Virus record (IMG/VR): IMGVR_UViG_3300010885_039212
Coordinates: 31,734 to 95,733 of that record
DNA: 64,000 nt
From: a virus
Direction: 5' to 3' (one strand)
Both the position numbers and the translations under genes were made by a program. Positions 33,728 through 63,415 of this stretch are shown here, piece by piece. The notes under the pieces were generated by a model. The model saw only the letters and a list, made by a program, of their open reading frames with translations. It made no database searches and was not told the origin of the DNA. How positions within the stretch are numbered: position 1 is the first letter of the stretch; every line of letters starts with the position of its first letter.

Positions 33728-33728
33728 T

Positions 33729-34358: not shown

Positions 34359-34370
34359 AGGGTTATAATA

Positions 34371-34691: not shown

Positions 34692-34721
34692 TAAGACGCA
34701 ACTATTGTCCTAAATAATAAT

Positions 34722-35114
34722 ATGGCACGAAACACTAGAATTTTCACTGATTTAGATCTTAATTTCTCGGCTCATCCTGTTACAAAAGACGTAACAGTTA
34801 AAACTGATGAACAAGCAATTAAGGCATCGATACGTAATCTGATTTTAACATCAAATTATGAGAAACCATTTCACCCAGAAATTGGTTCTCCGATTAAATC
34901 GCTTTTATTTGAACCAGCAACTCCGCTTCTACCAATTATTCTGAAGAAAGCAATTTCTCAGACTATAACTAATTTTGAACCAAGAGTTAATCTTACAAAT
35001 GTAACGGCAAATTTAAGTGCTGATAATAATGATGTTTATGTAACAATAGAATTTACAATAGTCAATACTAGCACAATTTTAAGTGTTGATTTAATACTTA
35101 CCAGAACGAGATAA
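34722..35114 (+). CDS. 25: gp25 baseplate wedge
   Basis: 130 residues, same length as T4 gp25 (132). DLNFSAHPVTKDV, NLILTSNYEKPFHPEIGS and VNLTNVTANL are the gp25/lysozyme-like wedge signature. It links the wedge to the sheath. CTAAATAAT stands 10 nt before ATG and no ribosome site is visible. Confidence 0.9.
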   Translation: MARNTRIFTDLDLNFSAHPVTKDVTVKTDEQAIKASIRNLILTSNYEKPFHPEIGSPIKSLLFEPATPLLPIILKKAISQTITNFEPRVNLTNVTANLSADNNDVYVTIEFTIVNTSTILSVDLILTRTR

Positions 35115-35117
35115 AAT

Positions 35118-39136: not shown

Positions 39137-39154
39137 TTAATAAAGGAGACTCCT

Positions 39155-39598
39155 ATGAACATAAAAGAAAATTTAAAAGCAACTGGTCGTTTAACTATTA
39201 CAGTTTTTGACAGAGATGGAAATTTAAAAGAAACTAAGACAGTTCCAAACTTAGTTGTTACTGTTGGTAAAAATTATATTGCAAGTCGTATGGCTGGTAC
39301 AGCATCCACTGTAATGAGTCACATGGCTATTGGTGCTGGCGTAGTTAGTCCAGCTGCAGGAGACACTACACTAGGTTCTGAACTTGGTCGTGCATCTTTA
39401 ACATCATTTACAGCATCTACAAATACAGTTACAGCGACCGCTACATTTAATGCGGGTACTGGTACTGGCGCTGTTACAGAAGCTGGTATTTTAAATGCTT
39501 CTTCTGGAGGAACCCTGCTTTGCCGTACTACTTTTCCAGTAGTCAATAAAGCTGCAGGTGACTCTATTGCTATTACTTGGGTTGTTACAGTAAGTTAA
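39155..39598 (+). CDS. tail-associated structural protein, 147 aa
   Basis: Strong AAGGAG site. ETKTVPNLVVTVGKNYIASRM, MAIGAG, GSELGRASL and TEAGILNASSGGTLLCRTTFPVVNKAAGD form a beta-sandwich family found in tails of many phages. The likely role is an adaptor or decoration on baseplate or fibre. Confidence 0.65.
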   Translation: MNIKENLKATGRLTITVFDRDGNLKETKTVPNLVVTVGKNYIASRMAGTASTVMSHMAIGAGVVSPAAGDTTLGSELGRASLTSFTASTNTVTATATFNAGTGTGAVTEAGILNASSGGTLLCRTTFPVVNKAAGDSIAITWVVTVS

Positions 39599-39613
39599 TT
39601 AAAAGAAAACAAA

Positions 39614-48500: not shown

Positions 48501-49733
48501 ATTGTAACTGGTGTTGCTTATAGATTTGCACTTCCAATAAATGGTATTCCAGTTACTGAAATCTATAAAAATACTCTTGGTAATGCAATTACTCATACAA
48601 TTACTGATGTTGATTTAGATTCTTATGTAATTCAGGTTACTACAAATGCATCTATTACAGGTTATACTGGCGGTGATACAGTTCGTGCAGGAAACAACGT
48701 AATATATGATATCGTTCAGCCAAGCGTACAATGTCAGAATTTCTCAGAAACTAGATGCGATTTCACTTTGGCAACTGCTTCAGGTAAATCTGTTGATGGA
48801 TCTGAGTCTCCTTATCTTGTTGGAGATTACTATGGCGTAATTCCAAATGATAATAACTATCTGTATTCTCCAGCTGTAATTGGATCTACCGTTAATGAAG
48901 ATAATTATATTGTTCAGTCAATCCTAAATTCAGGTAAGAAATCTGTTTATTTGCAAGCATCTATGTCAACTACAAATGATGCACTGTCTCCACTAATTGA
49001 CACCCACAGAACTTCATTGATTGCTATCTCAAACAAGATAAATAGTCCAAGAGAAGATAATATTAACGTAGCTGAGATTGACAACAGAACTTTATTCACT
49101 GGTGCAACTGGTGCTTATACTTTCGCTGGATCTACAATTACTACTAGCAACGCTACAGTTTCTGCATTGATTCAAACTGTTTCTGTTGGTAAATATATCA
49201 CAGTATCTAGTGCAACTACTGCTGGTAATAATGGCACTTATCTAGTTACTGGAGTAGCTGGTGATGGTGCAACTACTGGAACTATTACTATTAGTGGAAC
49301 TTTTACAAATAATGAATCCGCTGCATCAGGAACTACAGTTAAACTAAGAAATTTGTTTGTTGATGAGATTGCTCCAAGAGGTAGTTCATCAGTTAACAAG
49401 TATATTTCCAAGGCAATTAAACTGGCGAATCCTTCCAACTTCTTTAGGATTCGTTTATCTACTAACTGTCCAAACGAAGCTGATGTTTTAGTATATTATA
49501 AAATAAATCCAGTTGGTACGACTCGAGATTTAGAGACAGTTAACTGGACTGTGACTGACCCAGATGTAGCAATCAAGAAAGTTCAAAATGGTGTAAATGC
49601 TTTCTATGATGTAGATTATTCTGAAGATGGCTTAGTTCCTTTCGATGCAATTGCAGTTAAAATTGTAATGCAGTCTACCAATAGTTCTGCGGTACCAAGA
49701 ATCAAAGATCTCAGAATTATAGCATGTGTGTAA
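42579..49733 (+). CDS. giant baseplate/fibre-connector protein, DUF4815-type, 2384 aa
   Basis: FNTEPYNDDFDENNKFYRILFRPGFAVQARELTQLQTILQ at the N-terminus is the DUF4815 signature of T4-like aquatic phages. The region near 1130 (IGNLEKRIDNLEYYTSLTLLEQET) is a coiled coil, and near 1680 AQTFLVQSKGGAFLSKVDIFFATKD marks a conserved beta domain. Two copies of the 50-residue module (about 252-305 and 377-427) are shared with gp8. It probably joins baseplate periphery and fibres, in place of T4 gp10. No ribosome site is seen (ACAGGAC lies 12 nt upstream). Confidence 0.75.
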   Translation: MLDFNTEPYNDDFDENNKFYRILFRPGFAVQARELTQLQTILQNQISRQGNHLFKEGSMVIPGQISLDTKYNYVKLQIFNSAGDITESFVQNLAGATLIGTSGVTAEVLTVVSASGADPTTLYIKYTSSGTNKTTSKFSNGEVLTTSDSAYTVTALTSNAVGTGSSATIERGVYFVKGFFVLCDQQTIILDKYTNSPSYRVGLTVTETKLTPEDTGYEQLLDNAQNSFNYAAPGAHRYFIDLTLAKIPLLTDAFSWAAGLTVAKGDVVKNNDIYYQVTVAGNLGSSAPSHTSGSTSNGTSTLQFIEIYTESTDTDSDSGFIELLSTAAGQVKREVSTSSYAEIEKTLARRTYDESGNYITKPFTIEVREYRNNERKQWTQGTSYLIGDVVTNNSITYVAKNSATSGIVPPTHTSGIVTDGTVNWEYNMMPYYNRGVYTPSNSENITVNQENEAKLAIGLEPGKAYVQGFEIQKIATEYVTIDKARTYDQVNNSYLSTKLGNFIYVTNLNSLPPFDSSTGCPEITIYNRFTSSVGVAPNNSNVAATVAISSTGGQFTCGNSTLVVGDLITITGTKAGSSTFTGYVSGTTYKVSSVTGTSPNVTGFTLTTTSDVALTTVAGTLTGLTYTVASATAIGTARVRGIEYDSGTAGSQTAIYKLYLFDINVTAGYDISRDAKCFYYNRSDSNLNFTADIKPMTLDLVGSATTYNSYPTKGASTSLTGIGSAWKGGTLTSPLLKVGDYIYVGSSSNIRRVVTVTSNGVIVVDSSVTVDGGIISLVTSKVQEPANNSLIFSLPNYAIKSVRDANNSNQIIYYTMKYISASTGSSIGSGKCELTINSGGGVFAETTEIDNYILMYNDSSAGGAVIDPISASGAGTSQVKFLLSDSYANKNFTVMATIKKIGTDGGEKTKTLQTVTQTYTTQASATNSIISLGKADIFRIKSIKMDTGSFASPTGTYGFNIYDRYNFDNGQRDEYYDVGKLFLKHSYSPPSAPISVEFEYFSHGGSGDYFTINSYGNQVRVNDIPSYNGVSLRDVLDFRPRIADAGDVFTSTGSSFSLTPKRGQDITVSYSYYLPRKDKIAISQNGVFFDVAGVPALVPGEPLDPAVGMVLYKLTLEPYTFGTTNSNIIIDQIDNKRYTMRDIGNLEKRIDNLEYYTSLTLLEQETKGLPITDANGLDRFKNGFIVDSFTGHNVGNVLSPDYLCSVDMQNGELRPFYNINNVNLIESISSDNDRTTAGYKLYGDVITLPVVDHIPIVKQIYASRLENINPFAIFTFLGDIKLNPSSDDWFETQRAPDIIRNVEGNFNTIAALATQAGILGTIWNAWQVTWVGQVVPVGGALVQYTTGNNWASQGYMGDSTGKNVGTGAAIYINVNEFNQRFGGGGSGPARQVFVTTEAQTISRSRLGVKSTLAVQMDRQIIDDKVISTTVIPYIRKRNILVQVKKLKPNTTFYPYFDNIDVKSYCTPSSTITYTLPTATSTDFETSKNSGSLAADPARVINTTAGIFNSDYGGNMCLNIGDVITGQSSAATAVVVGREYDSDSGIRKLHVMNIKGTFTVSETILGSISGAQGTVTVREGNRVQGGNLITNGSGDLNFVFFIPDNDNIRFRTGTREFKLLDVSTVNGQQTSSAKVQYEAKGILETKQQTVLSVRNAQIIQEIVNENDTVTKTIDRIARDTGWYDPLAQTFLVQSKGGAFLSKVDIFFATKDTKIPVTLQIREVVNGYPGKRILPFSEVTLKPEQVNISGTTVAMTDGSGSNYPKYDTPTTFTFPSPIYVQDNTEYCIVLASDSNNYKVWISQMGDQIPASSRTISEQPYAGVLFKSQNASTWTANQDQDLKFTVYRAKFDILAQGSVVFTNDVLPVQIIDTKPFETVSGTNKLRVWHRDHGMFVNSKVQFDNEDTTVYAGKTSSGGTITCSTSSTTVTGIGTLFIDDFTAANAALFRASDGKLIGIVDHLTNDTTLVLKANASTTIVTGVAYRFALPINGIPVTEIYKNTLGNAITHTITDVDLDSYVIQVTTNASITGYTGGDTVRAGNNVIYDIVQPSVQCQNFSETRCDFTLATASGKSVDGSESPYLVGDYYGVIPNDNNYLYSPAVIGSTVNEDNYIVQSILNSGKKSVYLQASMSTTNDALSPLIDTHRTSLIAISNKINSPREDNINVAEIDNRTLFTGATGAYTFAGSTITTSNATVSALIQTVSVGKYITVSSATTAGNNGTYLVTGVAGDGATTGTITISGTFTNNESAASGTTVKLRNLFVDEIAPRGSSSVNKYISKAIKLANPSNFFRIRLSTNCPNEADVLVYYKINPVGTTRDLETVNWTVTDPDVAIKKVQNGVNAFYDVDYSEDGLVPFDAIAVKIVMQSTNSSAVPRIKDLRIIACV

Positions 49734-49965: not shown

Positions 49966-51327
49966 ATGTCAACTATAACCTTAAGAGCCACTAAAGGATC
50001 GCCACTTACCAATACAGAAGTGGATAATAACTTTAGTAATTTAAATACTGATAAGTTAGAATCTAGTTACGCTGGAGCAATGAATAGCCTTACTGGTGGT
50101 TCATCTATCGTTACAGTTAGTTCTACAACTGGTATTACAACTGGCGCATGGAAAGCCACTGCAATTGGTGCTGCATATGGCGGTACTGGTGTTGCAAATA
50201 ATGCTGCGAGTACTTTAACAATTTCTGGCGCATACGGAACTACGCTGACTGTATCAGGAACTACGTCTCTTACTTTGCCTACTTCTGGCACTATTGCTAC
50301 TTTAGCTGGTACAGAAACTTTTACAAATAAGACATTAACTTTCCCGACAATTGATAATATCAAGTTAGGTTATTCCACAACTGCAACTGCAGCAGGAACA
50401 ACTATTTTATCTTCTACAAGTAACAGTCAACAGTTTTTTACTGGATCTACCACTCAACAGGTAAATTTACCAGATACTTCTACTCTGTCAACTGGTGTAT
50501 CTTATACGATCGTTAATCAAAGTTCTGGCGTAGTTACTGTTAAAACCACATCTGGTACAAATTTAGTTTTTGCAGTTCCTGCATCAACTCAGGCTACATT
50601 TTATTGTATCAGTACTTCTAATAATAATGCTGCATCATGGTATTATAATGCTGGAGCAACTTCTGGTTCAACAAGTATTATTACTTTAGGTACTATTACT
50701 ACTGGTACTTGGAATGGTACTGCGATCAGTGTTGGTTATGGCGGTACTGGAGCATCATCTTTAACTGCTTATGCGGTTCTTTGTGGAGGAACTACTTCAA
50801 CTGGTGCAGTTCAAGCAGTCGCTTCTGTGGGTACAGCTGGTTATGTTTTAACATCTAATGGTGCTGGCGCACTTCCTACTTTTCAATCTGCAGCAGGTGG
50901 TGTTACTGTTACTGATGACACATCAACTAATAGCAACGCAAGATATCCACTCTTTACATCAGCTACTTCTGGCTCTGTAAGTGGCACAAACGTATCAACT
51001 ACAAAGTTATATTTTAACCCAAGTACTGGTACTTTAAACGCAACAAACTTTAACTCTCTGTCTGATGAAACGCTAAAGACAAATATTACACCTATCGTAA
51101 ATGCAACAGATATCGTTCGTGCATTGAATGGTGTTGAATTTGATTGGACAGATACTGGCGATAAATCGTCTGGTGTTATTGCTCAGCAATTAGAACCAAT
51201 TCTACCGCATCTAGTTAATACTAACGAAGAAGGTATTAAGTCTGTTAACTATCAAGGTATTACTGCGTATTTAATTGAAGCGTTCAAAGAGATCGATCAA
51301 AGATTACAAAACTTAGAAGCAAAATAA
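49966..51327 (+). CDS. tail fibre with S74 intramolecular chaperone
   Basis: 453 residues. Start STITLRATKGSPLTNTEVDNNF is a common fibre attachment segment. The shaft has TGTWNGTAISVGYGGTG repeats. Residues 366-453 form the peptidase S74 chaperone: SDETLKTNI with the Ser366/Lys371 pair, GVEFDW, GVIAQQLEPILPHLV and a terminal helix. S74 domains trimerise fibres and then cut themselves off. Confidence 0.85.
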   Translation: MSTITLRATKGSPLTNTEVDNNFSNLNTDKLESSYAGAMNSLTGGSSIVTVSSTTGITTGAWKATAIGAAYGGTGVANNAASTLTISGAYGTTLTVSGTTSLTLPTSGTIATLAGTETFTNKTLTFPTIDNIKLGYSTTATAAGTTILSSTSNSQQFFTGSTTQQVNLPDTSTLSTGVSYTIVNQSSGVVTVKTTSGTNLVFAVPASTQATFYCISTSNNNAASWYYNAGATSGSTSIITLGTITTGTWNGTAISVGYGGTGASSLTAYAVLCGGTTSTGAVQAVASVGTAGYVLTSNGAGALPTFQSAAGGVTVTDDTSTNSNARYPLFTSATSGSVSGTNVSTTKLYFNPSTGTLNATNFNSLSDETLKTNITPIVNATDIVRALNGVEFDWTDTGDKSSGVIAQQLEPILPHLVNTNEEGIKSVNYQGITAYLIEAFKEIDQRLQNLEAK

Positions 51328-51328
51328 A

Positions 51329-52441
51329 ATGGCTTTCCAAATAAATGGTACAAATGTTATTGCTGATACAACAGCAGCAACAATAGATAACATTAATATT
51401 AATGTTGCGACCAGAGATGTTCAGGCAGGAACAACAGCATATGGTACCAGTGTGTATCAAGGTACTATAAGTGGATATTCTCATGGTGGGGCTGGTCCTA
51501 CAAGTCCAAGTCCAGTAGGATCTATAAAAATTGAGAAATTTTCGTTTCCGTCAAATGCTAATGCTACTTCTGTTGGATCCTTAACCAAAGGAAGATATAC
51601 TTCTTCAGGTGTAGGTTCTACAGTTAGTGGATATACTATGGCTGGATATACTGCAGATATGGATGGCCGAGCTTCAGTAAATACAACTTATGAGAAGTTT
51701 TCTTTTGCATCTGATGGTAATGGTGTTGGTGTTGGTAGATTGACAGTTGGTAGATGGAGACCATTTGGTGGTAGCGCATCTTCAACATATGGTTATACTG
51801 GTGGTGGTATTAATCCAGATCTTGGACCAAATAGTTCTACAGTAAGTAACTATGAGAAATTTCCATTTTCGTCAGATGAAAATATGGCAATTGTAAATAC
51901 TTTGTTGTGGTCGGCAAGTGGATTAAATATGGGTGCCACGTCTTCAGTGAGTGGATACATAATTGGCGATCAGCCTGCTTTTCCTGGTGGTGCAACTGGT
52001 ATTATTCAAAAATTCCCATTTGCAACAGACTCAACAACAACTTTAGTTACATCTTCAATGGTAGTATCAAGAAGAACTTACGCACAAGGTAATGGAGTTT
52101 CTTCAACAAATTTTGGATATGTTTCAGGTACCAGTGCACCATCACAGCCTGCAACATATGGTGTTTCTAATCAAATGAAACTAATAGAAAAATTTGCATT
52201 CGCATCAGATGGTGCTTCTACTGCAGTTGGTCAATTAACATTGGCCAGATATGGTTCCAGTGGACAATCTTCAACAATTAATGGTTACTGTTCTGGAGGT
52301 TATGGTGGAACTCCAGTAGCAGCAGTATCACTTGTTATTGATAATTGGCCATTCTCATCAGATTCAAACGCAACTTCTGTTGGACAGTTAGTTACTGGCA
52401 GAGAAGAACAAGCTGGATCACAAGCAAGATCACCGAGTTAA
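51329..52441 (+). CDS. six-motif Kelch-like propeller fibre protein A1
   Basis: 370 residues. N-terminus MAFQINGTNVIADT, then six repeats of about 50 residues, each with an aromatic strand K-F-x-F-x-S-D, a VGSLT-type turn, a GR.. strand and GY..GG. The six strand motifs start KFSFPS, KFSFAS, KFPFSS, KFPFAT, KFAFAS and WPFSS. The pattern is that of a six-bladed beta-propeller. First of three adjacent type-A copies, 1 nt after the S74 fibre; a receptor-binding role is inferred. Confidence 0.75.
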   Translation: MAFQINGTNVIADTTAATIDNININVATRDVQAGTTAYGTSVYQGTISGYSHGGAGPTSPSPVGSIKIEKFSFPSNANATSVGSLTKGRYTSSGVGSTVSGYTMAGYTADMDGRASVNTTYEKFSFASDGNGVGVGRLTVGRWRPFGGSASSTYGYTGGGINPDLGPNSSTVSNYEKFPFSSDENMAIVNTLLWSASGLNMGATSSVSGYIIGDQPAFPGGATGIIQKFPFATDSTTTLVTSSMVVSRRTYAQGNGVSSTNFGYVSGTSAPSQPATYGVSNQMKLIEKFAFASDGASTAVGQLTLARYGSSGQSSTINGYCSGGYGGTPVAAVSLVIDNWPFSSDSNATSVGQLVTGREEQAGSQARSPS

Positions 52442-52445
52442 AAAA

Positions 52446-53528
52446 ATGACATATCAAATATCAGGTACAACAGTTATTAATGATTCGTCTGTTACTAGTT
52501 TTCCCACATCAATTAGTACAACGGGATCTATAGCGTTTAGTTCAAATGATACGTTCCAAGGAACTGTGGCAGGATATACTTCTGCTGGTTGGAGTCCATC
52601 ACTGTATCCCACCAACCCTAATGGATATTTCGCTTCTATTCAAAGAACTTCATTTACATCAGATGGTAATTCCATTGTAACTGGAGCTTTATCTCGAGCT
52701 ATACGAGATGGCGGTGGATGTTCTTCTGATAGTAATGGTTACCATGCTAATGGATTTAATTCAAATCCTGGAGCTGGACAGATAGAAAAATTCCCATTCG
52801 CAAGTAATGCCAATTCAAATGTCGTTGGACAAATGAATGGTTGGTCTCATGGTGTTTCTTCTTCTTCAAGTATTCCATATGGATATGGATATATAATGGG
52901 TGGCGCTGGTTCAGGACAGCCAAACCCACAGCCATATCCAGTTACACCAGATGGATATTCAAATAAGATATCAAGATTTCCATTCGCAATAGAAACAAAT
53001 TCCACACTTATGGTTGGAACTTTATCTGTATCAAAAGGTTTTGGAAGTACTGGACATTCTTCACCTCTAGCTGGTTGGGCGGTAGGTGGATGGACTCCAG
53101 CTGGCGTAGGTCTTAGTAATATTGAAAAATATACATTTGCAACTGACTCTAGTGCAACTTCAGTTGGACAATTACCAGCTGCAAAGACTGGTTCTAGTGG
53201 TACATCATCTTCTACATATGGGTATGTAGCAGGTGGTTCAATTAACCAAAGTGGACCAGGAACAGTTGCTACCATTTATAAATGGCCATTTACATCTCCT
53301 GGAAATGCAACTTCAGTTGGACAATTAACAGTTGGAAGATATAGTGGAGTAATTGGGACTTCATCAACTGCTTCTGGATATAATATGGGTGGTCAACCAA
53401 GTGCTGCAGATGGTGGAGCTACAGCAGCGGTCATTGATAAATTCCCATTCGCATCAGATTCAAACGCAACTAGTGTTGGTAGTCTCGCTTGGAGACTACA
53501 CAATAATTACTCTAGTCAACAGGATTAA
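52446..53528 (+). CDS. six-motif Kelch-like propeller fibre protein A2
   Basis: 360 residues. MTYQISGTTVINDS start, related to A1. Six strand motifs: SFTSD, KFPFAS, RFPFAI, KYTFAT, KWPFTS and KFPFAS. The third blade has a long Pro/Gln insertion (GSGQPNPQPYPVTPDG), a likely variable loop. Tandem with A1 and A3; no promoter between them. Confidence 0.75.
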   Translation: MTYQISGTTVINDSSVTSFPTSISTTGSIAFSSNDTFQGTVAGYTSAGWSPSLYPTNPNGYFASIQRTSFTSDGNSIVTGALSRAIRDGGGCSSDSNGYHANGFNSNPGAGQIEKFPFASNANSNVVGQMNGWSHGVSSSSSIPYGYGYIMGGAGSGQPNPQPYPVTPDGYSNKISRFPFAIETNSTLMVGTLSVSKGFGSTGHSSPLAGWAVGGWTPAGVGLSNIEKYTFATDSSATSVGQLPAAKTGSSGTSSSTYGYVAGGSINQSGPGTVATIYKWPFTSPGNATSVGQLTVGRYSGVIGTSSTASGYNMGGQPSAADGGATAAVIDKFPFASDSNATSVGSLAWRLHNNYSSQQD

Positions 53529-53531
53529 AAA

Positions 53532-54623
53532 ATGGCATTCCAAATAAATGGTACAACAATTTTAGATGCTAATGCTGGCGGTTCTAGTACAATATCAAAT
53601 GTTCCATCACTTAATGCCACTGGCGATGCTGCGTATTTTGAAGCAACTCCATCATCTCCGTATTATGGAACTGTGGCAGGATTTGTTTCTGCTGGTTATG
53701 GAGCACCTCCATCACCACCGCCAACTGGATATCAAAGGGTAATTCAAAGATTCCCATTTGCAACTGATACGGATTCAACATATATTGGTGATGGTTTGGT
53801 TCAAGGATATTCAGTAACAGGAAATTCATCAACTACCCATGGATATAGACAAGGTATGGGTTTTCCTACATCAATTAATCAACCAGATGGTACTAATTGG
53901 AGTTCAAACCAAGAAAAATTTACATTTTCTTCTACAACATATGCTTCAAGCGCAGGTAGTCTTGTAAATGCGGTTATGAGTGGTATCGGAGTATCAGCAC
54001 CAGACACTGGATATATTATCGGTGGTATTAATGGTTCTGCTCCAAATGGTGGTAGTATAAGAAATTATATACAAAAATTCTCGTTTAGATCAGATGCAAA
54101 TGCATCTTTAAATAGTGGAATAGTTACTTTAGGAGGTAGAGCAAATAGTGGTGGACATGCTTCTACTATTAAAGGATATGTTTCTGCTGGTAGTTCGTAT
54201 TCAGGTAACCCTGGAGTATCACCTCTTGGAATAACTGCAGCAATTGAAAGTTTTCCATTCTCAACTGATTCAAATACAACTAGTGTTGGTCAAGTTACTG
54301 TTGGTAGAACAAATGCAGTGGGTCAATCTTCACCTATATCTGGATATACTTCGGGTGGTTATTTACCATCACCTGTTACGCACTATACTACAATTGATAA
54401 ATTTCCATTTGCATCCAATACCAATTCAACCTCTGTTGGTTCATTAACTCAGGCTAGAACTGATGGTTGCGGTGCAGGACATTCTTCAGTTAATTATGGA
54501 TATACCTCTGGTGGTTATATGCAAACCAGAATTGATAAATTTAGTTTTTCCACTGATTCCAATGCAACTACAGTTGGTTCTTTGGCTAAACAAACATGGC
54601 TCGCTGCTGGGCATCAAGATTAA
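53532..54623 (+). CDS. six-motif Kelch-like propeller fibre protein A3
   Basis: 363 residues. MAFQINGTTILDAN start, nearly the same as A1. Six motifs: RFPFAT, KFTFSS, KFSFRS, SFPFST, KFPFAS and KFSFST. Loops between blades differ from A1 and A2 in length. Followed by a hairpin at 54651. Confidence 0.75.
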   Translation: MAFQINGTTILDANAGGSSTISNVPSLNATGDAAYFEATPSSPYYGTVAGFVSAGYGAPPSPPPTGYQRVIQRFPFATDTDSTYIGDGLVQGYSVTGNSSTTHGYRQGMGFPTSINQPDGTNWSSNQEKFTFSSTTYASSAGSLVNAVMSGIGVSAPDTGYIIGGINGSAPNGGSIRNYIQKFSFRSDANASLNSGIVTLGGRANSGGHASTIKGYVSAGSSYSGNPGVSPLGITAAIESFPFSTDSNTTSVGQVTVGRTNAVGQSSPISGYTSGGYLPSPVTHYTTIDKFPFASNTNSTSVGSLTQARTDGCGAGHSSVNYGYTSGGYMQTRIDKFSFSTDSNATTVGSLAKQTWLAAGHQD

Positions 54624-54650
54624 AGAGTATCTTAATCTAGATTAAAAACT

Positions 54651-54672
54651 TTCTGGAGGTTCGCCTCCAGAA
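54651..54672 (+). terminator. strong hairpin after the type-A fibres
   Basis: TTCTGGAGG-TTCG-CCTCCAGAA: nine pairs closed by a stable TTCG loop. No T-run follows, so it may stop transcription weakly, protect the fibre mRNA's 3' end, or mark a processing site. Confidence 0.5.
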
Positions 54673-54712
54673 GTCATATATATAATATGATGAAATAAAC
54701 TATGGAGTTATA

Positions 54713-55552
54713 ATGAACCGCTTGCATTTTTGTGGTGGTCTTCCAAGATCTGGAAGTACCATTTTGATGAATATTTTACAACAGAATCCAAAAATCTTCA
54801 CTACTGGGACTTGTGCCCTGCCTGATCTAATTTCAGATCACATTTTAATCAAATCTAGATACCGAGAAATGTTCCAAGCCATGTCTGTACATGATGCGGA
54901 TAAGGCTATGTATGGATTAATTCATGGTGCAACAAAAGGTTGGTTTGAGGGATTAACAAATAAAGAAGTTGTAATTTCTAAAAATAGAAATTGGTCTTCT
55001 ATTTTTCATCTATATAAAGATTCAAAATATATTGTAATGGTGCGTGATATTCGTGATATAGTTGAAAGTTTTGAGAAGGTCAATCATAAAACACTGGCAC
55101 TTCATTCTTTCGGTGATACTGGAACTACTTCTCCTGCAATGCACGAGTTAGAGAAATATCATTTTTATTTTCAACAAGGAAATGCACTACAGGCTTCCAT
55201 TAATTTTGAAATTCCAAGGTTAATGGAAAGATATATGTCTGGTGGACAAAATAATATAAAATTTGTTCGTTATGAAGATTTTACACAAGATCCAGTTTAT
55301 ATTTTAAAAAAGATATATGAATTTTTAGGGTTGGACTATTTTGAACATGATTTAAATAATATTCAACAACAAACACTGTTTGAGCATGATCATGCTTATT
55401 TTAGAGAAAGAACGGATCATGTTATTGATCCAGTTTTTAAATATTATAAACCTCCAGTTAGAACTTTACCAGATCGTTTTCATGAGAAAACTTTAAAAGA
55501 GTATGACTGGTTTTACAAAGGATTTTATCCAGATGTTATTCCAACCAATTGA
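54713..55552 (+). CDS. sulfotransferase
   Basis: 279 residues. The 5'-phosphosulfate loop GGLPRSGSTIL (8-18) and the 3'-phosphate motif YIVMVRDIRDIVESF are those of PAPS-dependent sulfotransferases; KFVRYEDFTQDP is a further family block. It should transfer sulfate from PAPS to an unknown acceptor. Lying between fibre genes, and with an APS-kinase-like gene at 62555, it suggests sulfation of fibre or host-surface material. Confidence 0.85.
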   Translation: MNRLHFCGGLPRSGSTILMNILQQNPKIFTTGTCALPDLISDHILIKSRYREMFQAMSVHDADKAMYGLIHGATKGWFEGLTNKEVVISKNRNWSSIFHLYKDSKYIVMVRDIRDIVESFEKVNHKTLALHSFGDTGTTSPAMHELEKYHFYFQQGNALQASINFEIPRLMERYMSGGQNNIKFVRYEDFTQDPVYILKKIYEFLGLDYFEHDLNNIQQQTLFEHDHAYFRERTDHVIDPVFKYYKPPVRTLPDRFHEKTLKEYDWFYKGFYPDVIPTN

Positions 55553-56105
55553 AATAAATGGACTTAATACATTTATCGTTCAGAGTAAAGTATCTGATGA
55601 AGCTGTAGAACAAGCGATTAATACATTTAATGTATTAATACCTCATGCTGGACTAACTGGCAATGGTGTTAATCCAGAGAAAAAAGATTCTTTAGATGTT
55701 AGTGTAGTTCCAAATACTGTTCTTATTGAACGTGAAATTCGTGAGATAGTTGGAAATTATTGTGAATACTATTCTTTAGATAAATTTGTAGCTCCTTTAG
55801 ATATTACTGAACACATTAATATACAAAAATATCCACTAAAGGGTGCATACCATTCTATACATGCTGATCGAGGATGGTCGCCATTAGATATGTATAGAGA
55901 ATTAGTTTTTATGACATATTTAAATACGATACATAGTGGTGGTGAAACAGAATTTATGTTTTACAAACTAAAAATTAAACCAGAAAAAGGTTTAACATTA
56001 GTATGGCCAGCTGGATGGACGCATGCACATCGTGGGTTACCTGCTCCAACTGCTGAAAAAATAATCCTTACAGGATGGTTTAGTCCATCAAGAAATTATG
56101 ATTAA
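55533..56105 (+). CDS. 2OG-Fe(II) oxygenase, prolyl-hydroxylase-like
   Basis: 190 residues from ATG 55533 (20-nt overlap with the sulfotransferase). Iron ligands: SIHADRGW (H-x-D) and WTHAHRG (distal His), with the 2OG-binding region before TGWFSPS. The GGETEF block is typical of prolyl 4-hydroxylase-like members. Substrate unknown. Confidence 0.8.
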   Translation: MLFQPIEINGLNTFIVQSKVSDEAVEQAINTFNVLIPHAGLTGNGVNPEKKDSLDVSVVPNTVLIEREIREIVGNYCEYYSLDKFVAPLDITEHINIQKYPLKGAYHSIHADRGWSPLDMYRELVFMTYLNTIHSGGETEFMFYKLKIKPEKGLTLVWPAGWTHAHRGLPAPTAEKIILTGWFSPSRNYD

Positions 56106-56664
56106 AGAATTACCACACCATAAATTATTTCCCACTCCTATATGGGGTTATGTTTTATCAAACTCACATTATCAAGCAATTGACTACGTTAATAAAATAA
56201 GAGAGATACAACAAACAGAACCTTCTGTTAAAAAAAGTAATTTTAGTGGATATCAAAGTCGAGATAATTTGCATGAAGAACCGATTTTTCAAGAATTGGT
56301 TAAATATGAAATTCTTCCACTTGCTCAAGATATTATAAATACATATTCAAATGTTAAAGTAAAAATGGATCAAATGTGGGCAAACATTAACGATAAGTAT
56401 AGTTGCAATCAATCTCATATACATAGTGGACTACTATCTGGAGTATTCTACTTACAGACTCCAGAAAATTGTGGACAAATTGTTTTCTGTAATCCTGCAG
56501 TGAGAAGTAATTATCACATTATAAAAGAACCAGATTATGGAGTACCTCCTCAAAGATTGGCATGTTTGTTTTTTCCTAGTTGGTTAGAACATTATGTTGA
56601 ACCAAATTGCAGTGATGAGAGTAGAATTAGTATTAGTTTTAATATAGGAGAAATTTATGAATAA
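56098..56664 (+). CDS. 2OG-Fe(II) oxygenase, TIGR02466/2OG-FeII_Oxy_5 type
   Basis: 188 residues. KLFPTPIWGY opening, MWANINDKYSCNQSHIHSGLLSGVFYL and CLFFPSWLEHYVEPN ... RISISFNI are the family marks, with HIH and LEH as the iron-binding segments. Widespread in marine T4-like phages. Overlaps neighbours by 8 nt on each side. Confidence 0.8.
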   Translation: MIKELPHHKLFPTPIWGYVLSNSHYQAIDYVNKIREIQQTEPSVKKSNFSGYQSRDNLHEEPIFQELVKYEILPLAQDIINTYSNVKVKMDQMWANINDKYSCNQSHIHSGLLSGVFYLQTPENCGQIVFCNPAVRSNYHIIKEPDYGVPPQRLACLFFPSWLEHYVEPNCSDESRISISFNIGEIYE

Positions 56665-57931
56665 ATCAGCAGAATTTTTTGATCAAAATGGTTATGTGGT
56701 AGTTACAGATGTTCTACCAAAACAAACATGCGAAGAGTTAACTCAGCACATGTTTAGTCTTTTAAATGATGGTAAGCTGACAAAAGATGATCAGTGTCCA
56801 ATTTCAGATGCAATTTATGGAGATCCAGTGTTTGATGATCTCTTGCAAAAATTTGCAGAACCAGTTGGTAATCAAGTAGGTCGTAAACTGTTACCAACTT
56901 ATACTTACGCAAGAATTTATCGTCCAGGAGAAGTTTTAAAGAAACATAAAGATCGTCCAGCATGTGAGATTAGTTGCACATTAACTCTTGGTTATAATGG
57001 TAAATCTGTTTGGCCAATTTTCTTTGATGAAAATAAAGCAATACCAGTTATGTTAGAGCCAGGAGAAATGGCTGTGTATAAAGGATGTGATATTGCACAT
57101 TGGAGAACAGAATTTAAAGGCGATTGGCATGTGCAAGTATTTTTTCATTATGTAGATGCTAATGGACCATATAAAGATGAGTATAAAGATCGTCGCCCAG
57201 ATTTTGGAATTGACAAAAAAACTTTGACTACAAATGCAGGTCAAGTTCAAACTGATGTTACTGAACAAGAAAAAATGTTACAACAAGTTAAATATAATAA
57301 GCCAGTATTTGGTGGTGTAATTATTTCTAGTCAAGATGATTCATTTCCTGGATATACAAGTATAGATTCTTCTAATTATCGAGGATTGATGTTTACCAAA
57401 GAAGAGTGTACTAAGATTACTAATTTAGTTAAAGATAATTATCCTGCTCCTGCATCTATTGGTGGAAATCAAAATAATAGTAAAGTTGCAGAATCGATAA
57501 GATCAGCTGATATTTACATTTTAGAAAATGATGATGAAAATAGATGGCTTTTTGATAAAGTTTCAACTATTGTAACTCTAGCGAATAAACTACATTTTGA
57601 TTATGATATTAGTGGTATTATCCATGGTATTCAGTTAATCCATTATAAGTCTAATACTGAAGTTGCTGGACATTATGACTGGCATATTGACTCTGGTCCA
57701 GGAATTTCTGCTACCAGAAAAATATCATTTACAGCACAAATTAGTCCTCCAGAAGATTATGAGGGATGTGAACTTATCCTAAATAATAATGGGCAGATAG
57801 TTACGGCAACAAAAGAACAAGGTTCTGTGCATTTATTTCCAAGTTATATGTCACACAGAGTTACACCAGTAACTAAAGGCGAACGATTTGCTTTAGTAAT
57901 TTGGATCCATGGATCGAGGAGATTTAGATAA
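56657..57931 (+). CDS. fused double 2OG-Fe(II) oxygenase
   Basis: 424 residues with two oxygenase domains. Domain 1 (about 1-180): RIYRPGEVLKKHKDRPACEIS (HxD), then GCDIAHWRTEF. Domain 2 (about 215-424): HYDWHIDSGPG (HxD), LFPSYMSHRVTPVTKGERFALVIW, like PiuC-type prolyl hydroxylases. Both keep recognisable iron ligands. Two active sites in one chain may modify two residues of one target. Confidence 0.8.
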   Translation: MNKSAEFFDQNGYVVVTDVLPKQTCEELTQHMFSLLNDGKLTKDDQCPISDAIYGDPVFDDLLQKFAEPVGNQVGRKLLPTYTYARIYRPGEVLKKHKDRPACEISCTLTLGYNGKSVWPIFFDENKAIPVMLEPGEMAVYKGCDIAHWRTEFKGDWHVQVFFHYVDANGPYKDEYKDRRPDFGIDKKTLTTNAGQVQTDVTEQEKMLQQVKYNKPVFGGVIISSQDDSFPGYTSIDSSNYRGLMFTKEECTKITNLVKDNYPAPASIGGNQNNSKVAESIRSADIYILENDDENRWLFDKVSTIVTLANKLHFDYDISGIIHGIQLIHYKSNTEVAGHYDWHIDSGPGISATRKISFTAQISPPEDYEGCELILNNNGQIVTATKEQGSVHLFPSYMSHRVTPVTKGERFALVIWIHGSRRFR

Positions 57932-57950
57932 AATGAATGAGGAAAAAATT

Positions 57951-58898
57951 ATGAATGAAAAAGAAACAACTTCAGAAACAGTTAAGCAAGAAATTGCTGT
58001 ATTTGAGGACATCCGTAGAGATTTAGCGATACAAACAAAGCTAAATATACCTATGAGCTACGTGTTTGGGCGTGGGGTAATTGGTAATAAAGAAAGTTTT
58101 GGTGGTAATTCTTTAACAGTTAATACGGCTAAAGTCGATGGGGCTTTGGCTAATGTTGAAGAATTACAGAATATTTGGAACCATAGTCATACTCAATGGA
58201 CATGGAGACATTTAAACTTATCTTATCATGCTCCTCTAAAGAATATGCGACAAATTGCTGCAGAAATGTCAGCAAAAAAAGCTGCGTTAAACGAAGCTAA
58301 ATGGAGACATGTTGATTCAGAATTAAAGATTCGTAAGATTGAAGAAGAACTTCAAAAGGGACTTGATAGTGGTACTTTAGATTATTGGAGAGAAGTTGAA
58401 CTCAAAATTAAACTTGCTAAAATGAAAGAAGGTCTTGCAGATGGTACTTCTTATATTGAAGGAGCCATGAAAGACGTTCTAACTCTCAATGAACTATACG
58501 AGCAGTTGAAAGAAAAAGTTTCTAGTTTTAGCGAAGCTGATGTTGAGAAAGAAGAAACTAAATCTCATCTTCAAAGATCTCTTGTTCAATGTATTCGTGA
58601 TGTACGAGAACGTGGTTCAATATCAAAAGGTGAACAAGAATATATAGAACAGATCGGTGTGAATCCAATGAAACTGCAAGGTTTGCTACAAAAATATGTA
58701 GCTGCAGAAGCAAAAGAAGACAGCTGGGATGTTACGGGATTATATGAATTTGTAAATAAACTTACAGATGAATTAACTGATGTATATAAAGTAGATCATG
58801 CTAGAATGAAACTGCAGGGATTTAAACCTGAAGTATTTGATAATTATTCTTATACAAATAAGGTAGCGTTGTTACCTAAACAAGAAAAGGAAGACTAA
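57951..58898 (+). CDS. hypothetical helical protein, about 315 aa
   Basis: ATG 57951 has GAGGA 7 nt upstream; in-frame ATG 57933 is the alternative. Long charged helices (AEMSAKKAALNEAKWRHVDSEL, KIEEELQKGL) point to a coiled-coil rod. Conserved in phages of this group by appearance, but I cannot name it. Confidence 0.6.
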   Translation: MNEKETTSETVKQEIAVFEDIRRDLAIQTKLNIPMSYVFGRGVIGNKESFGGNSLTVNTAKVDGALANVEELQNIWNHSHTQWTWRHLNLSYHAPLKNMRQIAAEMSAKKAALNEAKWRHVDSELKIRKIEEELQKGLDSGTLDYWREVELKIKLAKMKEGLADGTSYIEGAMKDVLTLNELYEQLKEKVSSFSEADVEKEETKSHLQRSLVQCIRDVRERGSISKGEQEYIEQIGVNPMKLQGLLQKYVAAEAKEDSWDVTGLYEFVNKLTDELTDVYKVDHARMKLQGFKPEVFDNYSYTNKVALLPKQEKED

Positions 58899-58899
58899 A

Positions 58900-59244
58900 A
58901 TGGCAGTAATAGAATACATGATGGTACGAGATAGACATACTAGACAAGTACCAGAATTTGTTGGAGATCGTGGTCACTGGTATAATTCGGTGGATCATAC
59001 TTTTATCGGTTGGGTAGATGATAATCGTGACTACTATGTTCCAGATACTATTGTTTATCTTACTAAAGAGCAATTCATCGCCAGACAACTTGCTGCTCAT
59101 GCAGTTGTTCCATGGACTAAGTTTAAAGATGAAAAAGAAAACTTTAATCCAGGGGCTGAGAAAATTGATTTGACAATTGAAGAAGTCACATCAATTTCTG
59201 GCGCATGGTATGATGGATTTGTTGCAGCAAATCAACCTGCCTAA
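58900..59244 (+). CDS. hypothetical protein, 114 aa
   Basis: Follows the previous stop at once. Trp/Tyr/His-rich N-terminal half (GDRGHWYNSVDHTFIGWVDD), helical C-terminus. Unidentified. Confidence 0.6.
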   Translation: MAVIEYMMVRDRHTRQVPEFVGDRGHWYNSVDHTFIGWVDDNRDYYVPDTIVYLTKEQFIARQLAAHAVVPWTKFKDEKENFNPGAEKIDLTIEEVTSISGAWYDGFVAANQPA

Positions 59245-59250
59245 ATAATT

Positions 59251-59379
59251 ATGATAGAAATTACCGCACAAAGAATTCTAGAGCTAGAACTTCCAGAATT
59301 GATTAGTTTATTGAGAAATTTACAAATAGAAGACTTGGATGCATTTAAAAAAGTACGAGAATTACTAGAAGATCTATAA
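59251..59379 (+). CDS. small helical protein, 42 aa
   Basis: Leucine/glutamate-rich (ELELPELISLLRNLQIEDLD), stop overlapping the next ATG (TAATG). The CTAAATAAT element sits right before its start. It occupies the whole gap between two genes, which supports it. Confidence 0.5.
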   Translation: MIEITAQRILELELPELISLLRNLQIEDLDAFKKVRELLEDL

Positions 59380-60395
59380 TGACTATCAGAGTTAAAAAAG
59401 ACCGCATAGATTTCGACAATGGTTTTTCCATTGTCGAAACAGCAGAGGGATTTTCCTTTAATGGAGTTATCAATGCTAAAACTGCTCAAAGAAGTGGTTT
59501 TCAAGGTGTAATTGCGGGTTGGACTGCTGGTGGATATGTATATCCAGGCACAAGTACGCAAATTGAAAAAATTCCATTTGCAACAACTTTCACTCACTTT
59601 GGTGTTGGAAATTTAACAACACCTAGTATCTATGGACAGAATGGACACTCATCTGGAACTGATGGATATGCTAGTGGGGGTTTTACAACTAACATTGAAA
59701 AATTTCCATTTGCATCTGGTTCGGTTACAGCAGTTATATATGGAACACTTGGATCAAGTGGTGGTCTTGGTTTTGCAGTAAGTTCAGATACTGATGGTTA
59801 CAGCCATATGGGACATCCACCATTTCCATCTACTGGTAAGGGTGGTAAAGCAGTTTATAAATTTCCATTTGCAGTTGCTGGTAATATATCTAATCAAGTT
59901 TTTCAGTTAAACACAGGAAGACAACTTCCAGCATCTCAACAAAATACTATATATGGATTTGCCAGTGGCGGAAGAACAGATCCTCCTGGTAGTCCTACTC
60001 CAAGTTATGTTGGAACATCAACTATTGAAAAATTCCAATTTGGAACAGACTATACTAATTATACAGTTGGTGCTTTAACTCAGGCTCGCATTGCTGCTAG
60101 TGGTATTTCTGGACCAGTATATGCATATACTGCTGGTGGGTATAATCCATCTGCAGTTGCAACGATTGATAAATTTCCAATGGTTACTAATAATAATGCA
60201 ATAAGTGTCGGATCATTAAGCGTTACGAAATATTCTGGCTTTGGTAATAGTAGCACAACAGCTGGTTGGGTTCCTGGTGGTAATACGCCTTCACTAAATA
60301 CAGTTGAAACTTTTCCATTTGCCACTGATACAAATGCAACTAATGTTGGTTCTTTGTATACAAGCAGATATAGTGGTGCACCAGCTCAGGTATAA
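59379..60395 (+). CDS. six-motif Kelch-like propeller fibre protein B1
   Basis: 338 residues. N-terminus MTIRVKKDRIDFDNGF ... SFNGVINAKT differs from group A and defines type B. Six strand motifs: KIPFAT, KFPFAS, KFPFAV, KFQFGT, KFPMVT and TFPFAT. First of three tandem type-B copies. Confidence 0.75.
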   Translation: MTIRVKKDRIDFDNGFSIVETAEGFSFNGVINAKTAQRSGFQGVIAGWTAGGYVYPGTSTQIEKIPFATTFTHFGVGNLTTPSIYGQNGHSSGTDGYASGGFTTNIEKFPFASGSVTAVIYGTLGSSGGLGFAVSSDTDGYSHMGHPPFPSTGKGGKAVYKFPFAVAGNISNQVFQLNTGRQLPASQQNTIYGFASGGRTDPPGSPTPSYVGTSTIEKFQFGTDYTNYTVGALTQARIAASGISGPVYAYTAGGYNPSAVATIDKFPMVTNNNAISVGSLSVTKYSGFGNSSTTAGWVPGGNTPSLNTVETFPFATDTNATNVGSLYTSRYSGAPAQV

Positions 60396-60398
60396 CAA

Positions 60399-61508
60399 AT
60401 GACTATTAAAATAAATTCAGACAGTATACAGTTTCCAGGTGGAACCAGAATAGTTGCAACTCCAACTGGTATTGCTATAACTGGTAATCAAACAGAAGGT
60501 GCTTCTGGGTTTTTAACTGCAAAAGCATTTTCATATAAATCTCCAAATATTGGAGAAAACTACGGATATACTTCTGGTGGTGCTGGACCATCTGCTGGTG
60601 CAAATACTTTAACTGCAATTCAAAAATTTGCATTTGCATCAACAGTAAGTTCAACCCCTGTTGGTTCTTTAGCAATTGGTACTAACAATGTTCGTTGGGG
60701 ATCATCTTCTCCAAGTAATGGATATAATGTGGGTGGTCAAAATAGTCAGGCTGGACCAGCAGCACCATTTGCTCAGGCACCGCTTGGGATGGCATTGACC
60801 ACAATTCAAAAATTCCCATTTACATCAGATTCAAATGCAACTAATATTGGACAATTAACATATGGTTCATATGGTACTTCTAATGGGCACTCTACCATTG
60901 AAAATGGATTTGGTGGCGGTGGAATTTATTATACAACCAGAGTTGCTAGATGGTCTCATGTAAATGATGGAAATAGTCAAGTGCACACTAATTTAACTAC
61001 TGGTGTTATGTATGGGAGTTCGTTATCATCTGCATTTGCTGGTTACCAGGCTGGTGGTGGTAGTTCTCCAGCTTCACGAAACAGAACTGCAATTGAAAAA
61101 TTCCCATTTGCCATTCAAAATACTATATCTACTATAGGAAACCTTACACAAGGGCGAGAATCAATAGCTGGTGTTAATGCTCAACAAAATGGTTATTTCT
61201 GGGGTGGACAAGCAACTGCAACTTCAGCTGTTACAACAATTGCGGAAAAGTTTAATTGGAGTAATGAAAACGTAGTTGCTATTCCTAACATGTATACTCC
61301 ATATACGTCGCCAAATGGAGGTACTACTGCGGCAGGCGCAAAGACACCATCATCAAGTGCAACTACAGGATTTCTTGCTGGAGGAAATAATACTGTTGGA
61401 GGTGCTATGGTTGCAGTTGATGCTTTTTCTTTTGCTTCAGATGGATCTTCTGTCCTAGTTGGAACATTGGGAACTGCAGCATCGCAATCATCACCAAGTT
61501 TTTACTAA
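60399..61508 (+). CDS. six-motif Kelch-like propeller fibre protein B2
   Basis: 369 residues. MTIKINSDSIQFPGGTRI start, type B. Six motifs: KFAFAS, KFPFTS, RWSHVN, KFPFAI, KFNWSN and AFSFAS. Two blades (third and fifth) have diverged most, replacing F-x-F by W-S-H and F-N-W. Confidence 0.75.
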   Translation: MTIKINSDSIQFPGGTRIVATPTGIAITGNQTEGASGFLTAKAFSYKSPNIGENYGYTSGGAGPSAGANTLTAIQKFAFASTVSSTPVGSLAIGTNNVRWGSSSPSNGYNVGGQNSQAGPAAPFAQAPLGMALTTIQKFPFTSDSNATNIGQLTYGSYGTSNGHSTIENGFGGGGIYYTTRVARWSHVNDGNSQVHTNLTTGVMYGSSLSSAFAGYQAGGGSSPASRNRTAIEKFPFAIQNTISTIGNLTQGRESIAGVNAQQNGYFWGGQATATSAVTTIAEKFNWSNENVVAIPNMYTPYTSPNGGTTAAGAKTPSSSATTGFLAGGNNTVGGAMVAVDAFSFASDGSSVLVGTLGTAASQSSPSFY

Positions 61509-61520
61509 AAGAAGAATAAA

Positions 61521-62516
61521 ATGGCAATCAAACTTTTTGCAGATCATATTGAAATTGGAAATTTTATCTTAACAGAAGGTAACCAAGGAATTCAATTTGA
61601 TGGTGTTATTAATGCGGATAGAATCAATAGTAATCCATATCAAGGTGTAAGTGCTGGATATACTGTTGGACAATATGGTCCACCGCAAATTGGACAATTT
61701 CCATTCTCGACTTACGTAACTCAAAAAAATCCACAGACTCCTTCTTTTCCACCATATTCTAGAAGTACAGCTGGTGGTGCATCTAATACACATGGTTATC
61801 AATTTGGACACTATCAAGGTGGTTCACCACCATTAATGTCCAGTATTGAAAAATTTCCATTTGCAGATGTAACAGCTCCTGCTGTTGCAACTGGTGCGTT
61901 AAAAAATGCTGCTGGTGGAATTTCTGTTTATTTTAAGAGTTCAGAAAACGCATATATTGATGATTCAACCACTTGTAAAATTCCATGGGCAACAGATCAA
62001 CCATCTGTCCCACTACCATTATTTCCTCAAGGTGGTACTAATCTTGGCGGTGGTCATGGAGTTTCGTCTTCAAGTCATGGATATGGTACAGGGCAATATT
62101 CTGCTAGTTCAGTACTAAGAAAATTCCCATTCGCATCAGAAAATGGAATGCAAGATCTTGGTCAGTTAATGTATTATCCAGGATTTAATAGAAAAAATTG
62201 TTCTTCACCTACCAATGGATATGCATTAAGTGGACAGACCTATGGACCAGCAGGTAATGCAGTATTAGCGTATTCTATGGAAAGATTTCCTTTTGCACAA
62301 GATACAGCAGGTAAAGCAGTTTTAATTGGATCACTTGGTCCAAGCACTGGTGTTTGGGGAATCACCCATTCTTCTCGAACTAATGGCCATTGGACTGAAG
62401 GTACTGTTGGAGTAAATACATTTCCATTTGCCACTGATGCTTCTGCCACGCAACAACAAGCAGCACCAGCACTTGCATTTGGTACATTTTTAGCATCGTC
62501 TCATGTTCATGTCTAA
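61521..62516 (+). CDS. six-motif Kelch-like propeller fibre protein B3
   Basis: 331 residues. MAIKLFADHIEIGNF ... QFDGVINADR start, type B (the VINA segment is shared with B1). Six motifs: QFPFST, KFPFAD, KIPWAT, KFPFAS, RFPFAQ and TFPFAT. Confidence 0.75.
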   Translation: MAIKLFADHIEIGNFILTEGNQGIQFDGVINADRINSNPYQGVSAGYTVGQYGPPQIGQFPFSTYVTQKNPQTPSFPPYSRSTAGGASNTHGYQFGHYQGGSPPLMSSIEKFPFADVTAPAVATGALKNAAGGISVYFKSSENAYIDDSTTCKIPWATDQPSVPLPLFPQGGTNLGGGHGVSSSSHGYGTGQYSASSVLRKFPFASENGMQDLGQLMYYPGFNRKNCSSPTNGYALSGQTYGPAGNAVLAYSMERFPFAQDTAGKAVLIGSLGPSTGVWGITHSSRTNGHWTEGTVGVNTFPFATDASATQQQAAPALAFGTFLASSHVHV

Positions 62517-62554: not shown

Positions 62555-63415
62555 ATGGCACAGCGAATTTTAGTAATGGGATTACCAGGATCTGGTAAAA
62601 CTTATTTTACACAACATTTAAAAACCTATTTGGAAACTCATGGGGATCTTTATAAAATTAATCCTCAACGAATAATGAATTATGAGGGTATTCCAGATAG
62701 GAATTTCCTTCGGGTAAATGTTGACTGGTTCAACGCTGATGAGATAAGAAAGAAATATAATGATTGGGATTTCTCTAAAGAAGGAAGAATTCGTCAATCA
62801 TTACGTATGTTTCAGTTTGCATTTGAATGTACTGGTGACTATGTAATTTGTGATTTTGTTGCACCACTTGTTGAGATGCGCAACAACTTCAAAGCGGATT
62901 GGGTTATCTGGATGGATACCATTGATGCTGGTCGTTATGATGATACAAACAAAGCATTTACTCCACCAGATGTTTATGATTTTAGAATCACTGAGCAAAA
63001 CGCAGAGAAATGGGCAGAGTTTGTTGGTTCGCATATTCTAGAAAATCGTCGTAGACCTAAGTTTGACTGGCAAAAAGAAACAGTTCAAATGCTTGGTAGA
63101 TGGCAACCTTGGCATGAAGGTCATAGAAAATTGTTTGAAAGATCTATTGCTAAAACTGGTCAGGTTGTAATTCAGATTAGAGACTGTCAGGGGTGGCAAG
63201 GTTCCAATCCTTTTGCAATCGAGCAAGTAAAAAATTACATCAAACGAGATCTTGATCCTTTATTTCAAGGACAATATGAAATTCAAGTTGTTCCAAATAT
63301 TGTAAATATTACATATGGACGTGATGTTGGATATAAAATTGAACAAGAATCTTTTGATAAATCTGTAACAGATATTTCAGCCACCAAGATCCGTAAGGAA
63401 ATGGGAATTGAGTGA
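62555..63415 (+). CDS. APS-kinase-like / nucleotidyltransferase fusion
   Basis: 286 residues. The N-terminal kinase (1-165) has P-loop GLPGSGKTYFT and RVNVDWFNADEIRKKYNDWDFS, like adenylylsulfate kinase (CysC). The C-terminal domain (about 180-286) has GRWQPWHEGHRKLF with H187-x-x-H190 and ISATKIRKEM, a cytidylyl/adenylyltransferase core. The kinase would make PAPS for the sulfotransferase; the second domain may be a nucleotidyltransferase of different substrate, since classical ATP-sulfurylase motifs are not evident. Confidence 0.75.
   Translation: MAQRILVMGLPGSGKTYFTQHLKTYLETHGDLYKINPQRIMNYEGIPDRNFLRVNVDWFNADEIRKKYNDWDFSKEGRIRQSLRMFQFAFECTGDYVICDFVAPLVEMRNNFKADWVIWMDTIDAGRYDDTNKAFTPPDVYDFRITEQNAEKWAEFVGSHILENRRRPKFDWQKETVQMLGRWQPWHEGHRKLFERSIAKTGQVVIQIRDCQGWQGSNPFAIEQVKNYIKRDLDPLFQGQYEIQVVPNIVNITYGRDVGYKIEQESFDKSVTDISATKIRKEMGIE

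Follow-up and report, generated by a model that had tools for sequence, protein, structure and literature searches.

Two groups of predicted six-bladed Kelch-type propellers as putative receptor-binding heads of a T4-like phage

The window analysed here is a stretch of 64,000 nucleotides of viral DNA (IMG/VR record IMGVR_UViG_3300010885_039212, positions 31,734 to 95,733 of that record). An earlier, sequence-only reading had placed six repeat-containing ORFs at 51329–54623 and 59379–62516, and all six are present there, in two groups of three (A1–A3 and B1–B3). The ORFs form one run on the plus strand, with a spacing of 3–12 nt inside each group, and the two groups enclose a cassette of other genes. 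The features of the locus, in window positions, are as follows.

29708–42541, plus strand: T4-like baseplate region upstream of the array, with a gp5-like hub/lysozyme and gp6-like and other wedge subunits
49966–51327, plus strand: tail-fibre protein with an S74 endosialidase-chaperone domain, directly upstream of A1
51329–52441, plus strand: A1, 370 aa; A-type N-terminal segment (aa 1–45) and predicted six-unit Kelch propeller
52446–53528, plus strand: A2, 360 aa; A-type N-terminal segment and predicted six-unit propeller
53532–54623, plus strand: A3, 363 aa; A-type N-terminal segment and predicted six-bladed propeller
53532–53666, plus strand: N-terminal segment of A3 (MAFQINGTTI...)
54713–55552, plus strand: sulfotransferase (PF13469/PF00685), first gene of the cassette
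55503–56105, plus strand: 2OG-Fe(II) oxygenase (PF13640, phrog_61)
56098–56664, plus strand: 2OG-Fe(II) oxygenase (PF13759, phrog_81)
56657–57931, plus strand: two-part protein with phrog_2954 in its N-terminal and a 2OG-Fe(II) oxygenase in its C-terminal half
57909–58898, plus strand: coiled-coil-like protein, 329 aa, in no curated family
58900–59244, plus strand: 114-aa protein with no assigned function
59379–60395, plus strand: B1, 338 aa; B-type N-terminal segment and predicted six-unit propeller
60399–61508, plus strand: B2, 369 aa; B-type N-terminal segment and predicted six-unit propeller
61521–62516, plus strand: B3, 331 aa; B-type N-terminal segment (aa 1–30) and the most divergent predicted propeller

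Upstream of the fibre genes, positions 42579–49733 encode a 2384-aa structural protein related to phrog_358 (function not annotated). The gene that follows B3 (62555–63415) encodes a protein with a weak nucleotide-kinase-like N-terminal match and a cytidylyltransferase-like part.

Each of the six proteins contains six units of the K/R-F-x-F type, spaced 42–62 residues apart. The C-strand anchors of these units (0-based) lie at residues 69, 122, 176, 227, 287 and 338 in A1; 63, 114, 176, 227, 278 and 331 in A2; 72, 128, 181, 239, 289 and 335 in A3; 63, 107, 160, 217, 264 and 310 in B1; 75, 137, 179, 233, 283 and 341 in B2; and 58, 110, 152, 200, 254 and 299 in B3. An N-terminal half unit, GTxAGYTSGGY, stands ahead of unit 1 and unit 6 lacks the GY..GG half, so that, counted circularly, every chain comes to six complete repeats. 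Unit 1 of A2, units 3 and 5 of B2 and most units of B3 are degenerate. A blade HMM, built from the blades of relatives with the window left out, scored 224.6 bits for A1, 195.9 for A2, 203.9 for A3, 143.7 for B1, 109.4 for B2 and 27.7 for B3, compared with at most 9.4 bits for 1200 shuffled sequences (200 per protein). The proposal that every protein carries exactly six units of about 50 residues is thus upheld. The description of the blades as near-identical is not, as blade identity is about 32–33% both within and between the six proteins, and the proteins themselves are 25–37% identical in pairwise comparisons. Positional orthology of the blades was rejected, since blades from the same position resemble each other no more closely than blades from different positions (0.544 vs 0.537).

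Structures were predicted for A3, the most typical of the six proteins, and for B3, the most divergent, while A1, A2, B1 and B2 were assigned by unit count and homology. The AlphaFold2 model of A3, with an alignment of 112 relatives as input (mean pLDDT 86, pTM 0.85), has four antiparallel strands in each of six blades. Its strands begin with B (49–53), C (67–75) and D (83–93), continue with five full A-B-C-D sets and end with a lone strand at 359–362. Because blade 1 starts at strand B and an extra strand A lies at 359–362, the ring would be closed by the two chain ends, and from the strand order in the model the C-terminal strand is read as strand A of blade 1. In a Foldseek search against the PDB, A3 matched the Kelch domains of KLHL12, SAKe6 and KEAP1 (E 1e-14 to 6e-17), with KLHL12 as the best match and a TM-score by target of 0.84–0.90 for nearly all top matches. 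The B3 model (76-sequence alignment as input; pLDDT 78, pTM 0.75) also found KLHL12 as its best match, with a TM-score of 0.68–0.72. The models agree with the fold proposed from the sequence, and the six window proteins are accordingly predicted to be six-bladed Kelch-type propellers. The loops differ in length between blades, as had been noted, and across the family the length variation is almost confined to the B-C loops (39% gaps, compared with 0% in the A-B and C-D loops).

At the sequence level, no Pfam Kelch model matches any of the six proteins, a sequence search of PDB chains found no match, and only one of 112 family members matches Kelch_4 (E 0.0056). The six proteins belong to the Kelch fold, outside the curated Kelch/galactose-oxidase sequence families. 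A galactose oxidase-like enzyme, which would be seven-bladed with a copper site, was rejected on the six blades given by the unit count and the A3 model. No trimerisation or fibre shaft was found. The earlier term "fibre proteins" is a loose one, as each protein would be a lone propeller mounted on some 40 residues rather than a long fibre.

No Pfam family accounts for the six window proteins, and their only PHROG match, phrog_19111, is weak and without annotated function. An alignment-based scan of IMG/VR recovered 291 relatives, and the family comprises about 300 distinct proteins in total, encoded in arrays of one to ten propeller genes. With single sequences as queries, neither tblastn of A3 and A2 alone on phage records nor a scan of viral contigs with one protein found anything, probably owing to low-complexity filtering and divergence. 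Exactly six units were counted in 188 of 196 distinct full-length proteins from the loci kept, and unit number had played no part in their retrieval. The same HMM was applied to further loci that had been retrieved by way of the adjacent coiled-coil gene, and it gave six units in 162 of 189 proteins and four, five or seven in the rest; part of these deviating counts will be degenerate units missed by the HMM. Among the isolates of the phage collection, only the Synechococcus phage S-SKS1 has clear relatives; one single-cell marine virus record has them too. The six-unit form was found in none of the cultured relatives. Loci L081, L083 (S-SKS1) and L082 (AG-345-L05) have about 7–8 units per long ORF, and one ORF has 18 HMM stretches, so members at the margin of the family can depart from six. 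A search of 84,980 cellular genomes yielded six loci, all in metagenome-assembled genomes, and a cellular origin was rejected. Four propeller contigs (L162–L165) inside one Gammaproteobacteria metagenome-assembled genome are probably phage sequences binned with the host. The family is almost confined to uncultured phages. Matches of relatives to the Pfam entries DUF4907, THDPS_M and NucA/NucB were dismissed as repeat artefacts; in the DUF4907 matches inspected, no single stretch was significant by itself.

The A and B proteins, on opposite sides of the cassette, carry different N-terminal segments, a distinction already made in the sequence-only reading, and both classes are kept in relatives. 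The B3 segment is modelled as four short strands with a pLDDT of about 90, and the A-type segment of A3 is modelled with low confidence. In loci outside the seed loci, 18 A-type N-termini lie upstream and seven downstream of the coiled-coil gene, compared with 16 and 47 for the B-type (Fisher P 8e-5); the A-before/B-after arrangement is conserved in relatives. When the A-type segment was sought on non-propeller proteins of the propeller loci, it was found on S74 endosialidase-chaperone proteins (L101, L105, L108 and L117); relatives of these proteins in cyanophages bear a tail-fibre annotation. Moreover, four propellers of locus L024 have an N-terminal PF18454 Mtd_N domain (39.9–53.2 bits against a cut-off of 26.3). 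These domain associations suggest that the propeller family sits on tail fibres or similar sites. In L024 (531–8318), the Mtd domain stands where the A or B segment would be.

The same observations bear on the alternative that the propellers are intracellular adaptors, which would bind host proteins after infection in the manner of poxvirus or KLHL Kelch proteins and whose variable face would track host proteins or defence factors. The nearest solved folds are indeed substrate-adaptor Kelch domains, poxvirus Kelch proteins turn up in the viral fold search, and a fast-changing face suits any arms race; an intracellular one could also be the cause of the rapid propeller divergence described below. 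However, the propeller genes come after baseplate genes and the S74 fibre gene, the A-type segment is common to S74 fibre proteins, some members carry Mtd_N, and Pfam detects no BTB/BACK or effector-type domain in the window proteins. Such an intracellular function appears improbable.

Comparisons between related phages revealed how the propellers vary. In general, flanking genes are about 75–99% and N-termini about 90–100% identical, and many propellers drop abruptly to the family background. Gene order in the sister phage L084 matches that of the window; the S74 fibre is 88% identical, the coiled-coil protein 76%, the oxygenases 52–67% and the downstream kinase, the highest among the genes compared, 94%. 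The N-termini of B1 and B3 are 51–54% identical between these two phages, and the in-order propeller pairs share 28–36% over the propeller part, compared with 0.29–0.39 for unrelated family members. In the pair L085/L086, all six N-termini are 94–100% identical and the propellers 97, 94, 93, 91, 72 and 61%. Among seven aligned genes of L113/L116, with N-termini at 86–100%, two propellers are 98–99% and five 48–73% identical; the DNA of L113|2629 is 98–100% identical up to residue 75 and about 60% thereafter. The N-terminus is kept and the propeller replaced in L057/L071, L076/L080 and L042/L058 as well (flanking genes mostly 84–99%), and L130/L131 form a further pair with a conserved N-terminal and an exchanged C-terminal module. 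Most replaced propellers diverge over their full length, starting from a junction close to where the N-terminal segment ends. The reading adopted here is that relatives have exchanged entire propellers and retained the N-terminus.

A second kind of change is focused on one face of the predicted propeller. Among 21 pairs that are 80–99.9% identical and partly non-independent, B-C loops have 9.3% and D-A loops 5.6% amino-acid change, compared with 1.1–3.2% in strands and other loops. Taken together, B-C and D-A loops show 96 changes in 1374 positions against 80 in 3936 for the rest, a 3.6-fold excess (Fisher P 2e-16); the two sets do not differ in synonymous-only change (3.4 vs 3.2%, Fisher P 0.66). 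In the Kelch topology the B-C and D-A loops lie on one face, which is the ligand-binding face in KLHL proteins. A diversity-generating retroelement was rejected as the source of variation, as no reverse transcriptase (PF00078) match was found in the 95.7-kb record, which may be incomplete.

Many copies and types of propeller per genome, up to 10, would also fit surface decorations of the capsid or tail sheath that bind polysaccharide or the aquatic environment weakly and non-specifically rather than a particular host. A parallel exists in the jumbo phage CBB, which has whiskers along its tail and encodes the Kelch proteins CBB_550, CBB_552 and CBB_554, of which CBB_552 was detected in the virion (PMC5259590). 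Nevertheless, propeller replacement and loop-focused change resemble the behaviour of specificity modules, and the fibre-type N-terminal domains together with the gene position favour the tail, which makes a purely decorative role very unlikely.

The sequence-only reading had suggested that mixing or recombination among blades could widen the receptor range. Since the repeat consensus alone yields blade pairs of high identity, a raw list of such pairs was set aside and replaced by a DNA test with synonymous shuffling. Out-of-register exchange between paralogues exceeded the null in L060 (223 nt, 90%), L048 (157 nt, 95%), L014 (347 nt, 80%) and L009 (547 nt, 82%), with a weaker excess in some other relatives, and was not above the null in L085, L078 and L023. 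The window scored 29 against a null maximum of 30, indicating no recent blade exchange there. Recombination among blades is thus seen in relatives and not in the window. The near-identical phages L044 and L051 have a propeller gene (L044:2321-3502 vs L051:1863-2897) that differs by exactly one blade of 49 residues, which could be a real blade loss or an assembly collapse. Blade-level shuffling as the main generator of diversity would draw on these exchanged segments and on the one-blade difference. With no recent exchange in the window, replaced propellers that mostly diverge over their whole length after the N-terminal junction, and the L044/L051 case open to assembly collapse, it seems unlikely in that leading role. 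The proposed mixing is better described as whole-propeller replacement behind a conserved N-terminus, combined with change on one face.

The six proteins are best interpreted as modular, putative receptor-binding heads of a T4-like contractile-tailed phage (probability about 0.78), receptor binding being suggested by the pattern of variation. Points that weigh against this reading are that cultured relatives lack the six-unit form, that the A-type segment is modelled with low confidence, that the loop comparison draws on 21 pairs not all independent, that an intracellular arms race could also underlie the fast divergence, and that neither trimerisation nor a fibre shaft was found. According to this model, the short N-terminal segment, in its two classes, would dock the protein on the tail or a tail fibre, and a six-bladed Kelch-type propeller is predicted for the remainder. 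One face, equivalent to the side on which eukaryotic Kelch domains bind ligands, would be built from the B-C and D-A loops and would touch the host surface. Diversity may then arise by two routes, both visible in relatives: the wholesale swapping of propellers on a conserved N-terminus and, in the B-C and D-A loops, an excess of amino-acid change. Several heads per genome could allow one phage lineage to track changing or multiple receptors, and each of the two groups, A and B, may have its own docking site or carrier protein. The receptor-binding proteins of most uncultured aquatic phages are unknown, and this family is large, recognisable and almost phage-specific, with one fast-changing face and arrays of up to ten per genome. 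If its members are receptor-binding heads, N-terminal classes and variable loops would give direct access to host recognition in metagenomic data, and the propeller-swap pattern would make the upkeep and exchange of several receptor-binding proteins by phages testable in natural populations.

KLHL12, KEAP1 and the designed SAKe6 share with the window proteins six four-stranded blades, a GG after strand B and variable B-C/D-A loops on one face, and with the A3 model a C-terminal strand that closes blade 1. The window proteins differ from them in their repeat consensus (IDKFPFASDANATDVGDL..R...AGQSS..SGYTSGG), in having no BTB/BACK partner and in their phage tail context. The CBB Kelch proteins are likewise several in one phage and appear among the structural neighbours; however, they are recognised by standard Kelch profiles, have not been reported to form arrays with N-terminal classes in pairs, and match the window propellers weakly in structure (TM 0.47–0.67). 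Hypothetical proteins of S-SKS1 (M4QT40 and others) belong to the same repeat family by HMM and fold, are arrayed and have an annotated sulfotransferase nearby, but their longest ORFs have about 7–8 units, identity is 34%, and the phage has no match to the coiled-coil protein. Receptor-binding proteins of the Mtd type and of Klebsiella phages resemble the family in combining conserved N-terminal attachment with an exchangeable specificity module, and Mtd_N itself occurs on the four L024 propellers. The C-type lectin fold of Mtd owes its variation to a retroelement, whereas the present family has a Kelch propeller in its place and the record yielded no reverse transcriptase. The modular principle as such is already known, as a publication on Klebsiella-phage receptor-binding proteins sets out (PMC8262889). 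The HFTV1 paper, considered as a possible precedent, mentions no propeller in its text. Kelch proteins in phages and modular receptor-binding proteins were thus known before, while no description of this array family was found in the searched databases and open-access papers, an absence that is not proof of novelty.

The arrangement of the cassette genes between the propeller groups recurs in relatives. To avoid the bias that loci retrieved with the coiled-coil protein would introduce, occurrence was counted in the 38 non-redundant loci that came from the propeller search only. Relatives are present in 26 of the 38 for the two-part protein, 24 for the coiled-coil-like protein, 20 for the 114-aa protein and 14 for the sulfotransferase, which in all 14 directly adjoins a propeller gene, at a distance of no more than 175 nt (median 31). 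Conversely, a propeller lies within the stretch covered in 65 of 78 loci fetched via the coiled-coil protein, so the link between the two is strong, not absolute. The cassette genes travel with the propellers, and any action on them is hypothetical. It is conceivable, though unlikely, that the cassette (sulfotransferase, one to three 2OG-Fe(II) oxygenases, coiled-coil and 114-aa proteins) modifies or assembles the propellers, which would amount to phage-borne sulfation or hydroxylation of swappable receptor-binding heads at two virion sites. The "ferrochelatase" annotation of the phrog_2954 half of the two-part protein (56657–57931), which comes from cyanophages, looks doubtful. The coiled-coil-like protein has no match among 50,697 phage records and 97 matching stretches in IMG/VR.
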